A stretch of 64,000 bases of DNA from a bacterium. GTDB lineage: Bacteria > DRYD01. Positions 1 to 48,425 of this stretch are shown piece after piece. The DNA lies in assembly GCA_030549815.1 (NCBI GenBank), contig JAUQQQ010000002.1, forward strand, positions 83,465 through 147,464, given 5' to 3'. Each line of letters starts with the position of its first letter. The stretch's first letter is position 1. The notes under the pieces are model-generated. The model was not told the origin of the DNA. It saw nothing but the letters and a program-made list of their open reading frames with translations, and did no database searches. The position numbers were made by a program, and so were the translations under genes.

Positions 1-2
1 GG

Positions 3-779
3 GTAGGCGAAGCCTCCCTTGGGGTAGGAATTGATAATAAAAGTAATAATGAGAAAAATGAAAAATGCAGATTAGTTGAAGAAATTGTAGAAGAGATACA
101 AAATGATCTTAATATTGGATTTGTAGAGTTGAATAATTTTGATAAGAATTATTATAAGCTAAATATAGCAGGGTTGGTATTTTTTGCAAAATTTACAAAG
201 CAAATAAATGAAAATAAATTGGAAATGGTAAAAGAAACTTTTGAAAAAATTATTAAAGAATTAGAAAATAATCCGTTACAAAAAAAGATATTTTACTTCC
301 TTATCCTAATGGTTCTTAAAAATTGGTTGATTTCTAAAACTTATAGGGATAAACTCAAAATGATAGGGGAAAAATCTTTAATAAAATTATTATCTAACTT
401 TTCAAACAGAAAAATTAATTTGAAAGAAATAGATGAGTTAGGAATAGAATTTAAATCTGGTGTATTGAAAAACAAAACAAAAAATGAAGAGATGAAAGAA
501 AATGGTTTTTTCGATGATTCTCCTGAAGAGCTTGCTAAAAAATTAATAAAGAATTTTAACAATGAAAATAAGAAGAAACATTCTATAGTTTTTTACTTTA
601 TTGGAATTAATGAGGATACAAGAGATTTTAGTTTAATACCCTTAAATAGAATAAGAAATGAATATTTAAAAAAATTGGAAGAAGAATTGAAAAAAAACAA
701 TGTGGATGTTTTATTAGCAGAAAAAATTCCAATAGATAATAAAGGAGGAATACTTACAGTAATATTGAGAAGAAAATGA
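3..779 (+). CDS. Hypothetical protein, 5' end outside the window
   Basis: I do not recognise this protein. The frame is open from base 3 to the TGA at 779, so the gene almost certainly begins left of the window. A TTG at 129 is the first usable start inside it, but the frame reads on upstream without a stop. The product is lysine-, asparagine- and glutamate-rich and looks soluble and mostly helical, with no signal peptide or membrane segment. Its last 60 residues contain a compact stretch that could be a small alpha/beta domain. The first codons (3-29) are made by a GC-rich palindromic element and read VGEASLGVG, which resembles an insert in LepA at 10.3 kb. A decayed HEPN/MNT pair lies downstream. 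No function is proposed. Confidence 0.6.
   Translation, partial: VGEASLGVGIDNKSNNEKNEKCRLVEEIVEEIQNDLNIGFVELNNFDKNYYKLNIAGLVFFAKFTKQINENKLEMVKETFEKIIKELENNPLQKKIFYFLILMVLKNWLISKTYRDKLKMIGEKSLIKLLSNFSNRKINLKEIDELGIEFKSGVLKNKTKNEEMKENGFFDDSPEELAKKLIKNFNNENKKKHSIVFYFIGINEDTRDFSLIPLNRIRNEYLKKLEEELKKNNVDVLLAEKIPIDNKGGILTVILRRK
5..28 (+). repeat. GC-rich palindromic micro-element, family A, copy 1
   Basis: Two small palindromes stand side by side: AGGCGAAGCCT (5-15) and CCCTTGGGG (16-24), followed by TAGG. The same arrangement recurs inside lepA (10309-10336, minus strand) and at 11231-11250. Here it lies within an open frame and encodes GEASLGVG. Confidence 0.75.
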
Positions 780-8668: not shown

Positions 8669-9364
8669 TTACCTCCTTCCCAATTTTCTCAAGATATCAT
8701 AGTAAAGTTCGGCTTTAACGGGAATATAATTAAGGCTTTTATTATAGTATTCAAGGGCAGATTTATATTCCCTCTGTTCATACAAAGCTTTTGCTATAAA
8801 TCTATACAATGCCCCTATATCTTCTTTTTCTACTTTAGCGTATGAATATTTAGTTTTAGTTATAGGGTCAAAGAGTAATTTTTCAGCTTTAATAAAACAT
8901 TTTCCTGCTTCTACATAATCTTTTTCCTTTTGGCTATAAATTATTCCTGCAGTATAATACAATTTCCAGTAGTTTGGGTTATTTTTTACTCCCTCTTTTA
9001 CAAAATTCAACCCTTCTTGAGGTTTATTTAAAAAAAATGCTAATTGATAAGCACCAAAATCATAAGCCTCTACAAAATTTGGATCTAACATCGTTATAAA
9101 TCTTGTGTAATAAGTTATTTCTGTTAATTGATTTATCGTTACATTACCGGAATAATGTATATAAAACTCTGTTCTAATCCATAAGTAACCAGCAAGGGTA
9201 TACCTTATATTTCCTAAACTATTTATAAGAACTTCATAAAAAGGCATATTACTTCTATATTGACTTCTCAAAGATAAATAATCTACATTCCATAAGAAAA
9301 TAGAGATTACAAAACTTAATATTAAGCTTACTATTGCGATCAATTTATAAAAATCATTCTTCAT
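8669..9364 (-). CDS. Membrane-anchored TPR protein
   Basis: One N-terminal membrane segment (residues about 7-27) is followed by an extracytoplasmic region with at least three TPR-like helical pairs, for example YYTAGIIYSQKEKDYVEAGK and FIAKALYEQREYKSALEYYN. TPR units bind other proteins. The gene overlaps the end of lepA by 11 nt and ends 3 nt before yidC, so it belongs to the translation/insertion operon. A role in envelope assembly is plausible but unproven. I recognise no named family. Confidence 0.7.
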   Translation of the reverse strand: MKNDFYKLIAIVSLILSFVISIFLWNVDYLSLRSQYRSNMPFYEVLINSLGNIRYTLAGYLWIRTEFYIHYSGNVTINQLTEITYYTRFITMLDPNFVEAYDFGAYQLAFFLNKPQEGLNFVKEGVKNNPNYWKLYYTAGIIYSQKEKDYVEAGKCFIKAEKLLFDPITKTKYSYAKVEKEDIGALYRFIAKALYEQREYKSALEYYNKSLNYIPVKAELYYDILRKLGRR

Positions 9365-11150
9365 TTAAAGATAGCACCTGCCAGAAAGCTTCCTGCGGAA
9401 TGGAAACTTTACCAACAGTTTTCATCCTTTTTTTACCTTCCTTTTGCTTTTCTAATAATTTTCTTTTTCTTGTTACATCTCCTCCATAACATTTGGCTAA
9501 AACATCTTTTTTAAGAGGTTTAACAACCTCGCTTGCTATAACTCTACCCCCAATAGCAGCCTGAATTTTGTATTCAAATAATTGTTTTCCTATAGTTTCT
9601 CTTAATTTTTGGACAATTTTCCTCGAAGCATAGTAAGCTTTTTGTCTATGGATAATAAATGATAAAGCATCAACTTTAGTACCATGAACAAGTATATCAA
9701 CTTTGACTAAATCAGATTCTCTGTAATCCAAAAATTCATAATCAAAGCTTGCAAATCCACGGGTATAAGATTTTAGTTTATCAAAAAAATCTACAATAAT
9801 TTCAGCTAATGGAGCTTCAATATCCACGATTAACAAATTACCAGCTTTTTCTATATGAACAGATTGCCCCCTTTTATCTTGAACTAATTTTAAAACATCA
9901 TTTAAATATTCATGAGGAATTATTATTTTACCTTTTATGTAAGGTTCTAACACTTTTTCAATCTTGGTATTATCAGGCCATAAAGAAGGAGAATCTATTT
10001 CCTCTTCTTTATTATTATAAACTATTTTATACTTTACAGTTGGAGTTGTGGATATAATATTAAGATTAAAATGCCTCTCTAATCTTTCTTGCACTATTTG
10101 CATATGTAATAACCCAAGGAAACCACATCTAAAACCAAATCCCAAAGCAGCAGATTTCTCCTTTTCAAAAAACAAAGCCGCATCGTTTAATTTAAGTTTA
10201 AGTATAGCATCCTCCAGTCTTAAATAATCATCACCATCTGCGGGATAAAACCCACAAAAAACCATTGGCTTTGGTTCCTTAAATCCACTAATCGGTTCCA
10301 CTTCTTCCACCCGAAGGGAGGCTTCGCCTGAAGAGCAAACCGTATCCCCAACCTTCGTATCAGAAATATCCTTAATACTTGCACAAAAATAACCAACTTC
10401 TCCAGCATGTAAAACATCTACTTCTTTGTAAAATGGTTTAAAAACACCCACTTCTTCCACTTCAAACACTTTACCTGTTGAATAAAATCTTATCTTGTCT
10501 CCTTTCTTTATTCTACCGTCAAATACTCTAATGTAAACTATAACACCTTTGTAAGAACTATAAACAGCGTCAAAAATGAGAGCTCTAAAAGGTAAATTTG
10601 GATCACCTTTTGGACAAGGTATATCTCTGATCACTCTATCTAAAACTTTTTCAACGTTATAACCTGTTTTTGCACTAACCTTTTCAAAATCTTCATATGG
10701 TATTAGTAAAATGTCCTCTACCTGTTTTTTTAAGAATTCTTCATTATAATTTGGCAAATCAACTTTATTAAAAACTGGTACTATATGTAAATTTAAACTA
10801 ACTGCTTGTAAATAATTAGCTAAGGTTTGTGCTTGAACTCCTTGAGTTACATCAACTAACAGGATGGCACCTTCACATGATCTTAAAGCTCTTGAAACTT
10901 CATAAGAAAAATCAACATGTCCTGGAGTATCTATCAAGTTCAAAATATAACCTTTGTATTCTAACCTTACGGGATGAGATTTTATTGTTATTCCTTTTTC
11001 CCTTTCCAAATCCATCTGATCCAAGAACTGCTCCTGTAATTTTTCTTTATTTATAGTTTGCGTAATTTCTAAAAATCTATCAGCTAACGTTGATTTCCCA
11101 TGATCTATATGTGCTATTATTGAAAAATTTCTTATTCTTTCCAAGCTCAT
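9354..11150 (-). CDS. lepA: Elongation factor 4 (LepA)
   Basis: A ribosomal GTPase of about 598 residues, the normal length. The G1 motif is HIDHGKSTLADR at the N-terminus, G3 is DTPGHVDF, G4 is FNKVDLPN, and the unique LepA C-terminal domain ends with KKRMKTVGKVSIPQEAFW. EF4 back-translocates or remodels stalled ribosomes. The first ATG (11150) is chosen; a TTG lies one codon upstream. Around residues 274-280 the loop before ISGFKEPKP carries SSGEASLRVEEVE, about eight residues longer than I expect. That insert is encoded by a GC-rich repeat element. Confidence 0.96.
   Translation of the reverse strand: MSLERIRNFSIIAHIDHGKSTLADRFLEITQTINKEKLQEQFLDQMDLEREKGITIKSHPVRLEYKGYILNLIDTPGHVDFSYEVSRALRSCEGAILLVDVTQGVQAQTLANYLQAVSLNLHIVPVFNKVDLPNYNEEFLKKQVEDILLIPYEDFEKVSAKTGYNVEKVLDRVIRDIPCPKGDPNLPFRALIFDAVYSSYKGVIVYIRVFDGRIKKGDKIRFYSTGKVFEVEEVGVFKPFYKEVDVLHAGEVGYFCASIKDISDTKVGDTVCSSGEASLRVEEVEPISGFKEPKPMVFCGFYPADGDDYLRLEDAILKLKLNDAALFFEKEKSAALGFGFRCGFLGLLHMQIVQERLERHFNLNIISTTPTVKYKIVYNNKEEEIDSPSLWPDNTKIEKVLEPYIKGKIIIPHEYLNDVLKLVQDKRGQSVHIEKAGNLLIVDIEAPLAEIIVDFFDKLKSYTRGFASFDYEFLDYRESDLVKVDILVHGTKVDALSFIIHRQKAYYASRKIVQKLRETIGKQLFEYKIQAAIGGRVIASEVVKPLKKDVLAKCYGGDVTRKRKLLEKQKEGKKRMKTVGKVSIPQEAFWQVLSLNEE
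10309..10336 (-). repeat. Family A micro-element inserted in frame within lepA
   Basis: On the minus strand the sequence reads CTTCAGGCGAAGCCTCCCTT then CGGGTG. It contains the AGGC-GAA-GCCT palindrome and the CCCTTCGGG palindrome in the same order as the copies at 5-28 and 11226-11250. It encodes SGEASLRV in a variable loop of LepA and leaves the frame intact. Confidence 0.75.
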
Positions 11151-11225
11151 CAATTATAAAATTCTACAAAATCTACAAAAATCTTTCAAAACAATTAACT
11201 TTACATTTTTGAAAAAATATCACTT

Positions 11226-11269
11226 CTTCAGGCAAAGCCTCCCTTAGGGTAGAGACCTCCCTTAGGGTA
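11226..11269 (+). repeat. Family A micro-element with a partial tandem duplication
   Basis: TTCAGGCAAAGCCTCCCTTA (11227-11246) is followed by GGGTAG. A second half-copy, ACCTCCCTTAGGGTAG, ends at 11270. The 3' half-copy supplies the last codons and the stop codon of the permease gene that ends at 11262. Confidence 0.7.
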
Positions 11270-12452
11270 GAAATAAGTAAATTACAATTAATGATATAAC
11301 AGTAATTAATGAACCTATTTTAAAATGTTCCCAGAAACCTATTCTTATATTGAATTTTTGACAAAAATTTAAAACTATTAAATTAGCAATGCTTGATAGC
11401 AAGGTGAAATTTCCAGCCAATGTTGATGATGATGAAAGTATAAACAAATCGTAATGATTTTTTATTTTCGTCAATAAAATTAAAACGGCAGGTACATTAG
11501 AAATAAATTGAGAAAGTATGAAAGTTGAAATCAATAAACCTAATTTACTATAAAGCAATTCAATAAAAGGAGAGATGATATCTTTAATAGCTTCCGTTAT
11601 GACAAATAATCCTGAAAAAATTATAAGAAGTTCAAAATCTACCATTGATAATATTTTAGAACTTTTTATCCTCCTTGTAAAAAACACAAGAGAAGAAGCT
11701 ATTAACATTACTAATGCAGGTTCAATACCTAATATTAATAAAATTAAAACCAACAAAATAATAAAAAAAGATTTTATGAATAATGGTTTATGTATAATTC
11801 TATTATTTTTCTCATTAAATAAATCCAATTTTTTTTCTTCCTGCAAAATTTGATTACCCAATAAATCTGGATAAAACAAAATAACTAACACAATTAGAAA
11901 AAATAAAGAAATAATAGTAGGTAAAAATAAAGCAGATAAAAACTCAAGGTAACTTATATTTCCTTTAGTTGCGACAATAATATTCTGAGGGTTACCTGTA
12001 ATCGTAGCCATACTACCTATATTAATAGACATCATAAAAGAAATTAAATATGGTTTGGGGTCAATTTTTAAATCCCTACAAATTTTAATTATTACTGGTG
12101 TAAAAACAAAAGCAATCGTATCATTTAAAAATAAAGCAGAAAGTATAGCAGAAATAAATACAATCTTTATCAATAAAAAAATTTTCCTATTAGAAAACAT
12201 TTTAAATGATACCCAGTGAAAAAAACCTGAAAAATAAATCAAAGAATTAACAACCATAACTCCAAACAAAAATATAATTATTTTAAAATCAATTGATTTA
12301 ATAGCATCATCTAAATTAATAAAACCAGTAAGAATAATAATGGATGAAACCAAAAAAACAATACTTGCCCTGTTTAACCTAATAACGGGAAATGAACCAA
12401 CAACCAAACCTATATAACACAAAAAAACAATTAATAAAATAAAATATTCCAT
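11262..12452 (-). CDS. ArsB/SLC13-type anion permease
   Basis: A polytopic membrane protein of 396 residues with about ten hydrophobic segments. The CitMHS/ArsB superfamily signature is seen in SMNIGSMATITGNPQNIIVA (about residue 145-165), the hairpin region holding the NP motif, and in the pseudo-repeat LSSIANLIVLNFC near the end. Relatives export arsenite or transport dicarboxylates, sulfate or citrate with sodium or protons. The substrate cannot be told here: no ars genes are nearby. The final residues LP and the TAA come from a GC-rich repeat, so the C-terminus may have been altered recently. Confidence 0.8.
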   Translation of the reverse strand: MEYFILLIVFLCYIGLVVGSFPVIRLNRASIVFLVSSIIILTGFINLDDAIKSIDFKIIIFLFGVMVVNSLIYFSGFFHWVSFKMFSNRKIFLLIKIVFISAILSALFLNDTIAFVFTPVIIKICRDLKIDPKPYLISFMMSINIGSMATITGNPQNIIVATKGNISYLEFLSALFLPTIISLFFLIVLVILFYPDLLGNQILQEEKKLDLFNEKNNRIIHKPLFIKSFFIILLVLILLILGIEPALVMLIASSLVFFTRRIKSSKILSMVDFELLIIFSGLFVITEAIKDIISPFIELLYSKLGLLISTFILSQFISNVPAVLILLTKIKNHYDLFILSSSSTLAGNFTLLSSIANLIVLNFCQKFNIRIGFWEHFKIGSLITVISLIVIYLFLP

Positions 12453-24034: not shown

Positions 24035-24553
24035 CTATTCTATTTTTATTACATATACATCATAGTTTAAAATATTTACATCATAGTTAGAAATACTACG
24101 ACTACTTCCCGTAACATAAATTTTTCCACTTCCATCTATCGCTATTGAATCACCAGAATCATCCCCACCACCAGCAATGTTGTTTAGAATAACTTTTCCT
24201 CCACTTCCAAAACTACTATCCATACTCCCATCACTATTTAACCTTATTACATATGCATCATAGTTAGAAGCCTTACCACTGCATCCCGTAACATAAATTT
24301 TTCCACTTCCATCTATCACTATTGAATAACCAAAATCACTAACACCACCAGCAATGTCTTTTAGAATAACAGCACTGTCGTTATCACCATCTCCATCTAT
24401 ATCTCTTCCCAATGAACTTCCAAATGTGTTTGATACTTTTCCTACAACACTCCCACTACTACTCTCACCATTAACTCTTCCACCACTACCTAATATCATT
24501 AATATCATCACTACTACTATTACTAATAATAAAATCAATATATTTTTTCTCAT
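24035..24553 (-). CDS. Secreted delta-60 repeat protein
   Basis: A signal peptide or anchor (residues about 4-24) precedes two and a half delta-60/SBBP-type propeller repeats, each reading DSIAIDGSGKIYVTG, then YDAYVIRLNSDGSMDSSFG. These repeats form beta-propellers in secreted or surface proteins. The protein is short at about 172 residues: half a propeller, perhaps oligomeric or truncated. ATG 24553 follows a GGGGG site; a GTG three codons upstream is less likely. It lies in the accessory pocket between two broken genes. Confidence 0.6.
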   Translation of the reverse strand: MRKNILILLLVIVVVMILMILGSGGRVNGESSSGSVVGKVSNTFGSSLGRDIDGDGDNDSAVILKDIAGGVSDFGYSIVIDGSGKIYVTGCSGKASNYDAYVIRLNSDGSMDSSFGSGGKVILNNIAGGGDDSGDSIAIDGSGKIYVTGSSRSISNYDVNILNYDVYVIKIE

Positions 24554-47156: not shown

Positions 47157-48425
47157 TTATTTCTTCTCTTGATTACCTTCAGGTATAGGTACATTTTGTG
47201 GATTTTGTTGCTGCAAACTTTGTTGCTGTGGATTTTGTTGTTGGCTATATTGAGCATATGTCATGTTGAACTGTGGATTAAATTGTTGTTGTCCTTGATA
47301 TGGATTATACGGTTGTTGAAAATAAGGTGGTTGTTGGAAATTTGGTTGGTAAGGTTGTTGAGGATAAGATTGCTGAGTATAAGGTTGCTGCGGATACTGT
47401 GGATACGGTTGTTGTGGATAATTTGGATAAGGTTGCTGTGGATATGAAGGGAAAGGTTGTTGTTGGTAATACGGTTGTTGATAAGGATACTGAGGGTATG
47501 GTCCAGGTCCAGGATATGGAGGTTGTTGATACATACCAAAACGTTTGAAATATTCCTCCTCAGTTATATACATTCCATTTAAGATATTTTGGCACTCTTG
47601 AGATTTTATCCATTCATCCAACTCTTTTACTCTATAAGGAACAAATGGATGAGTCATTTGAACCATTGCAATGTATTTATGAACAGTTTGCAAAAGATTA
47701 GTTTCATCCAATTGCCTTGCTTGCATAAGAACTTCATCAATGTTTACTTCTCCATCTGAATATTTATGAGAATATCCTGCCAATTTAGACAAAGCTCTTA
47801 GTGCAGTATTTCTATCCTGGACAACAAGAAAACCTGCTCTATCAGCAGAGAATTCTGCCATTCTACTCCAATGTAATAAACCCAATTGCAAAGATAATGC
47901 AGCCAATTGACCAACTCCACCTAAAACAGCAGTTATTACACCTACCCCAAGGCTACCTAAAATATAAGCAATAGTCTTATTCAACATATGATCAAATTTA
48001 TTGTGTCCTAATTCATGACCTATAACAAAAATTAATTCTTCTTCTGTAAGGATTTCTGTAAGGCCGCTTGTAACAACAACAAATTTTCTATCCATTCCCA
48101 TTGCAAAAGCATTAGGAACCTCTGCAGTTTGAAGGAAAAATTCAGGTTCATAAGGTAAATCCAAAATTTCTATTGCTTCTCTATAAACTTTGTAAAGCCT
48201 TGAATATTGATTAGGAGTAACTCTTAAAGCTTGCCCAGTAAAGATAACATACAGTGCTTCTTCACTAAATATCTTATTCAATATTTTAAATAACTGTGGT
48301 AGAAGTGGTATTTTCTTTAACCCCTCTGTAGCGACAGAATCAAATTTATGTTGAATAGCTTTGAGAGATATTCCTGGAAACTTTAGTTTACCACTATCAG
48401 TCTTAGGCAAAGTAGTAGCTTGCAT
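47157..48425 (-). CDS. M48-family metalloprotease with a Gln/Pro/Tyr-rich tail
   Basis: Residues 1-290 are an M48 (HtpX/Ste24-like) zinc protease: PNAFAMGMDRKFVVVTSGL, then VIGHELGHNKFDHML with the HExxH site near 138, and FSADRAGF with the third zinc ligand. A hydrophobic stretch (about 150-180) follows the HExxH. The closing MTHPFVPYRVKELDEWI is typical. From about residue 295 to the end the chain is low-complexity, built of units like YPQQPYPQYPQQPY, about 120 residues of Q, P and Y. Such tails are disordered and can mediate phase separation or adhesion. The DNA there is a degenerate minisatellite. It begins 6 nt after hemL. Confidence 0.88.
   Translation of the reverse strand: MQATTLPKTDSGKLKFPGISLKAIQHKFDSVATEGLKKIPLLPQLFKILNKIFSEEALYVIFTGQALRVTPNQYSRLYKVYREAIEILDLPYEPEFFLQTAEVPNAFAMGMDRKFVVVTSGLTEILTEEELIFVIGHELGHNKFDHMLNKTIAYILGSLGVGVITAVLGGVGQLAALSLQLGLLHWSRMAEFSADRAGFLVVQDRNTALRALSKLAGYSHKYSDGEVNIDEVLMQARQLDETNLLQTVHKYIAMVQMTHPFVPYRVKELDEWIKSQECQNILNGMYITEEEYFKRFGMYQQPPYPGPGPYPQYPYQQPYYQQQPFPSYPQQPYPNYPQQPYPQYPQQPYTQQSYPQQPYQPNFQQPPYFQQPYNPYQGQQQFNPQFNMTYAQYSQQQNPQQQSLQQQNPQNVPIPEGNQEKK

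Follow-up and report, generated by a model that had tools for sequence, protein, structure and literature searches.

The window, the whole 64,000-nucleotide stretch of DNA that we analysed (G000:C5:83465-147464), has a GC content of 29% and belongs to the draft genome G000 (1.59 Mb in 23 contigs, 90% complete). Towards its left end lie the 3′ part of a gene, lepA and a transporter gene, and with them copies of a 21-bp repeat unit, AGGCGAAGCCTCCCTTNGGGT (Table 1). The unit consists of a pair of neighbouring short inverted repeats, AGGC-GAA-GCCT and CCC-TTN-GGG, each with a loop of three bases, plus a T. A GC-rich repeat common to the left-edge gene and lepA had been proposed in the first-pass annotation, and the likeness is real: both read AGGCGAAGCCTCCCTT followed by NGGG, exact over 16 bases. 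A third copy in the window, adjoined by an 18-bp partial unit, had been missed. Elsewhere in the window, imperfect short tandem repeats unrelated to the unit lie within an ORF at 47298-47470, and two 127-nt direct repeats, 83% alike and 177 bp apart, are found at 24067-24370.

Table 1. Features that carry or adjoin the 21-bp unit in the window and elsewhere in G000
Feature	Position	Strand	Remark
Left-edge host gene, 3′ part	window 3..779	+	5′ part left of the gap, G000:C5:82160 onward
21-bp unit AGGCGAAGCCTCCCTTGGGGT, peptide GEASLGV	window 5..25	+	assembly duplicate of the third array unit
Three-unit array, units differing only in loop base (N = A, C, G)	G000:C5:83200-83262		in frame in left-edge gene
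lepA (elongation factor 4)	window 9354..11153	-	host gene, full length and intact apart from the unit
Single 21-bp unit in lepA, peptide GEASLRV	window 10309..10329	-	just after GDTV motif, length-variable loop
21-bp unit variant AGGCAAAGCCTCCCTTAGGGT	window 11230..11250	+	between lepA and transporter gene
18-bp partial unit AGAGACCTCCCTTAGGGT	window 11251..11268	+	adjoins the variant unit
Membrane transporter gene	window 11262..12452	-	3′ end in unit array; named from sequence only
IS605-type left end with units	C12:75551
IS605-type left end with units	C12:95053
IS605-type left end with units	C10:840
IS605-type left end with units	C18:37720
IS605-type left end with units	C19:37339-37380

Host genes of the unit

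No Pfam match was found for the left-edge gene, and none of the six related genomes has a relative of it. Directly left of window position 1 is a scaffold gap of exactly 100 N (G000:C5:83365-83464), and the 127 bp before this gap are identical to window 1-127. The copy at the window edge is therefore a duplicate of G000:C5:83242-83262, so that of the two separate copies first described only the one in lepA stands as such. The 127-bp overlap appears to be the usual join of two contigs in a de Bruijn assembly with k = 127; the gap is probably not real, and the gene is probably continuous. The contig to the right of the gap begins directly past the variable base of the preceding unit, a start point that suggests a second variant of the array in the sampled population.

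LepA orthologues from each of the six relatives match closely on either side of the unit and lack the stretch between, with VCSSGEASLRVEEVEP in the protein encoded here versus VADSDVQP, VSDSDVQP and VCDPEKYVEP within the genus. The LepA of Thermus is also shorter at this place and does not contain the GEASL peptide. As the length of this loop varies between genera and Thermus has a shorter form, the unit lies in a tolerant place of the protein. A comparable result was obtained for a GH57/DUF3536 gene on contig C7, in which alignment shows exactly 126 extra bp, equal to six units, that are missing from five orthologues. The insertion point lies between AAACTT and AAGGAG within the DUF3536 region, and the unit is inverted relative to the gene, the protein reading TRREASP six times. 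The array, at C7:108061, is a period-21 run of 128 bp, which is the shortest run that an assembly with k = 127 gives for arrays of at least six units, suggesting that six is a minimum. Alignment of the host proteins with relatives, as the first-pass annotation had advised, thus identifies the peptide as an insertion in both LepA and the GH57-type protein. The unit was inserted in the two genes after the split from the nearest relatives compared. It is among the smallest insertable repeats observed in protein-coding genes, and the host proteins gain seven residues per unit.

Two further places show the unit at or beyond the end of a gene. The transporter gene takes its stop codon, TAA at 11262-11264, from the TTA in the loop of the partial unit read on the minus strand, and a single intergenic copy on contig C10 lies a few bases past a stop codon, in a region where the relatives are non-syntenic. 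The constant frame and orientation first ascribed to the repeat hold for the left-edge gene and lepA but not beyond them, in view of the inverted array on C7 with its other frame, the intergenic copies and the copy that supplies a stop. With C as the loop base, five of the six reading phases of the unit are free of stops. There are only three coding places, two in one phase (GEASLRV) and the third in another (TRREASP), and nothing in them points to a favoured frame. Given a length divisible by three and a stop in just one of six phases, insertions in coding sequence would usually be tolerated, and the earlier idea of a repeat adapted to land in frame becomes unnecessary.

Copy number and distribution

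A search of the genome for further copies, also advised at first pass, found 19 distinct units in 10 places at ≤3 mismatches (20 matches minus the one assembly duplicate). No copy was found at the same threshold in the six relatives (71–88% complete), of which three are congeneric, two come from elsewhere in the family and one from elsewhere in the order, and a reversed control pattern gave no match. At this composition, ~3e-8 exact 21-mers would be expected by chance in 1.59 Mb. All 20 sites of the motif GGCRAAGCCT in the genome are within units, a truncated unit on C19 or the sister unit described below; the relatives have a few sites, each single and unrelated. Where several units occur at one place they are head-to-tail in every case, with arrays ranging from three to at least six units.

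Outside this group, the exact 24-base tandem form had no match in 85k species genomes, a collection from which near records may be missing. Exact search with a 19-base core in the 85k genomes gave three single matches, all in GC-rich MAGs of Clostridiales and Synergistales; two of these lie a short way before a possible gene start. None is a repeat in its genome, and all three were judged to be chance. The unit core was not found in viral contigs, and 12 viral matches to a 16-mer, none of which extends into the GGG half, were judged to be chance. Two other candidates were set aside: a match in the unrelated genome G025, which is a single copy in GC-rich DNA, and a 12-mer match at C6:157133, which is absent from the unit search at ≤3 mismatches. 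Within the limits of the collections searched, the unit occurs in this lineage alone.

Insertion sites and IS605-type elements

At the five dispersed sites, read in the orientation of the unit, the preceding bases are TTT, TTC, TTC, CTT and TTC and the following bases are AGG, GGA, AGA, AAG and AGG. All five are YYY|RRR junctions, compared with 1.7% of window positions, a rule that was noticed post hoc and on few sites. On the purine side, the bases may be what is left of the AGG of a next unit, the start of a unit since lost. The relative G002 has CTT at the C7 place in the unit-free state, so that the pyrimidines there probably predate the insertion. Palindromy of the target sites was not significant for the five dispersed sites (P = 0.07); P was 0.003 when the miniature element was added, but 0.05 once YYY|RRR was conditioned on. 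The unit does not fold better than dinucleotide shuffles (z of −0.4 to −0.7 as DNA and ~0 as RNA), and it is thus only the symmetry of the sequence that points to a role for the hairpins.

The other five of the 10 unit places belong to decayed IS605/TnpB-type elements, within whose left ends they lie (Table 1). Four of these are miniature elements, and in the fifth, on C18, a one-unit left end is joined to a remnant of tnpB that matches PF07282 and PF01385. The left end that they share consists of ACGAAACCCAAGCCAGAAGGCTCTCCTTTT(C), the units and AAAGGAGAGATGAATGGCT, in that order, and the element array opens with a 21-bp sister unit, AGGCGAAGCCTGCCTGCAGGC, and continues with units of the dispersed type. 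A related IS605 element with tnpB on C3, and another at the contig end of C2, have the same hairpin in an empty, unit-free form (TCTCCTTTTTAAAGGAGAG; TCTCCTTTTTAAAGGAGAGATGAA). On C19 the filled form consists of CTCTCCTTTTT, the array and AAAGGAGAG, and the two flanks joined give the same hairpin sequence, which places the array precisely at the tip of the hairpin. IS200/IS605 miniature elements that have a TnpB/omega-RNA-type right end are thus the local carriers, with half of the unit places in their left end, whereas in the related complete-type element the left-end hairpin has a short loop where the tip is here filled by the 21-bp array.

In the six relatives (71–88% complete), no such elements and no Y1 transposase were found. 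Matches to PF01797 (Y1 transposase) occur only in G000 among the seven genomes, one on C3 beside tnpB and one on C2, cut by the contig end and with the same left end. The tnpA on C3 is truncated to 85 aa (L105 2282-2539) and the adjoining tnpB is apparently full-length (373 aa); no units lie near either PF01797 gene in the draft assembly. The same C3 locus contains, at L105 3731-4723, a predicted lytic transglycosylase-like protein with several GGMPSMPF repeat copies. Miniature IS605-type elements without tnpB are present at L107, L099, L100 and L103 (C12:75480, C10:564-935, C12:46657 and C19:37153); these possible omega-RNA carriers keep the right end together with sequence similar to the 3′ end of tnpB.

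The left ends of the elements are 75–86% identical to one another and the dispersed units are nearly identical. Because the element copies have diverged more than the dispersed units, we infer that the spread was from the elements to the genes, although these data are also compatible with the reverse direction.

Proposed source and spread of the unit

The explanation that we favour, and consider fairly probable, joins these observations: the unit came from or through an IS605-type miniature element, reached pyrimidine/purine junctions elsewhere and then grew in tandem. Its origin, or the route of its spread, would be the left end of such an element, at the hairpin tip, where the older sister unit and the present one occur together. 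Single units would have been copied from there to other junctions of three pyrimidines and three purines, in a step that may be driven by structure or microhomology, either by template switching on a folded strand or by a mobility protein that acts on single-stranded DNA. Slippage in 21-bp steps would then lengthen and shorten the arrays.

Two other accounts are unlikely in our view, and to about the same degree. The dispersed copies could be scars of repair or recombination, in which broken ends were templated on units of the IS605-type left ends with no dedicated mobility, and slippage followed. Such an origin would explain the overlaps of one to three bases (A, AG, AGG) at the right junctions as well as arrays that grow in 21-bp steps, and no transposase is tied to the unit; however, the five dispersed sites share nearly one unit phase at their boundaries, a regularity that would not result if arrays were copied at random. 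Alternatively, the unit could encode no protein and yet spread by itself at YYY|RRR junctions, with tandem growth and seven-residue repeats as the outcome and the IS605-type element merely as a carrier. If so, it would be among the smallest known mobile elements and would create protein repeats, amounting to at least 42 residues in one enzyme.

That the unit is moved in the manner of REP/REPIN sequences (PMC3733652, PMC3116915), by a RAYT (REP-associated Y1 tyrosine transposase) that recognises a GTAG-tagged hairpin, is improbable. The unit resembles these short GC-rich palindromic repeats in size range and symmetry, PF01797 proteins occur in this genome alone among the seven, and the tandem junctions read GGGTAGGC, which contains GTAG. 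This tetranucleotide arises only at such junctions, however, and the single copies in lepA and on C10 have no GTAG/CGTC tag before the hairpin. Moreover, the Y1 gene on C3 is an ordinary tnpA adjoining tnpB rather than a solitary RAYT flanked by units, of which none was found in the draft assembly, and no inverted pairs or doublets were seen. On present evidence, the unit is not a REP/REPIN.

The first-pass annotation had also drawn a comparison with the palindromic elements of Rickettsia (PMC10969869), and the part of it that persists is that the unit lies in frame in protein genes (lepA, the GH57-type gene and the left-edge gene), conserved ones among them, and that it is an insertion tolerated as a short extra peptide, as the LepA and GH57 alignments show. 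Membership does not follow, as those elements measure ~100–150 bp and the unit 21 bp, in tandem, in both orientations and in at least two frames. A mobile repeat of this kind, selected for a tolerated peptide in one frame, is very doubtful here: there are only three coding places, the C7 copy lies the other way round, giving TRREASP, one copy ends its gene by means of a stop, and 21 bp is far from ~150 bp. By size, the unit is not a Rickettsia palindromic element.

Finally, the proposal that GEASL is native to LepA and its likeness to the repeat coincidental, with which the variable loop length would agree, is ruled out by the orthologue alignment, in which all relatives and Thermus lack the peptide, and by a copy number of 19 against the chance expectation given above. 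Neither of the outcomes that the first-pass annotation had named as refuting its reading, a lack of further copies or GEASL in the LepA of distant lineages, was thus observed.

Comparison with small dispersed repeats

The closest parallel may be the small dispersed repeats (SDRs) of Nostoc punctiforme and its relatives, reportedly described by Elhai et al. in 2008 as recently moved sequences of 21–27 bp. These repeats are said to lie inside minitransposons and other repeats, to have a short preferred site and to encode no protein. The unit has the same properties, being 21 bp long, dispersed and without a protein of its own, with a short preferred insertion site, empty lepA and GH57 sites in the relatives and copies inside IS605-type miniature elements. 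Unlike the SDRs of Nostoc, it resides in a host of 29% GC, is present in far fewer copies, lies in frame in conserved genes and forms head-to-tail arrays. The unit thus appears to work like these SDRs as they are described. For SDR5, an insertion within HIP1 is mentioned in PMC4390886.

How non-coding elements of ~20 bp such as SDRs and REPs move is an old question. Exact empty sites are available here, and one genome combines a candidate source array in a transposon end with both states of that end, empty and filled, which makes the question of movement testable. The arrays also illustrate a simple route by which a tandem repeat in a protein may be born, namely one insertion of a length divisible by three, followed by slippage.
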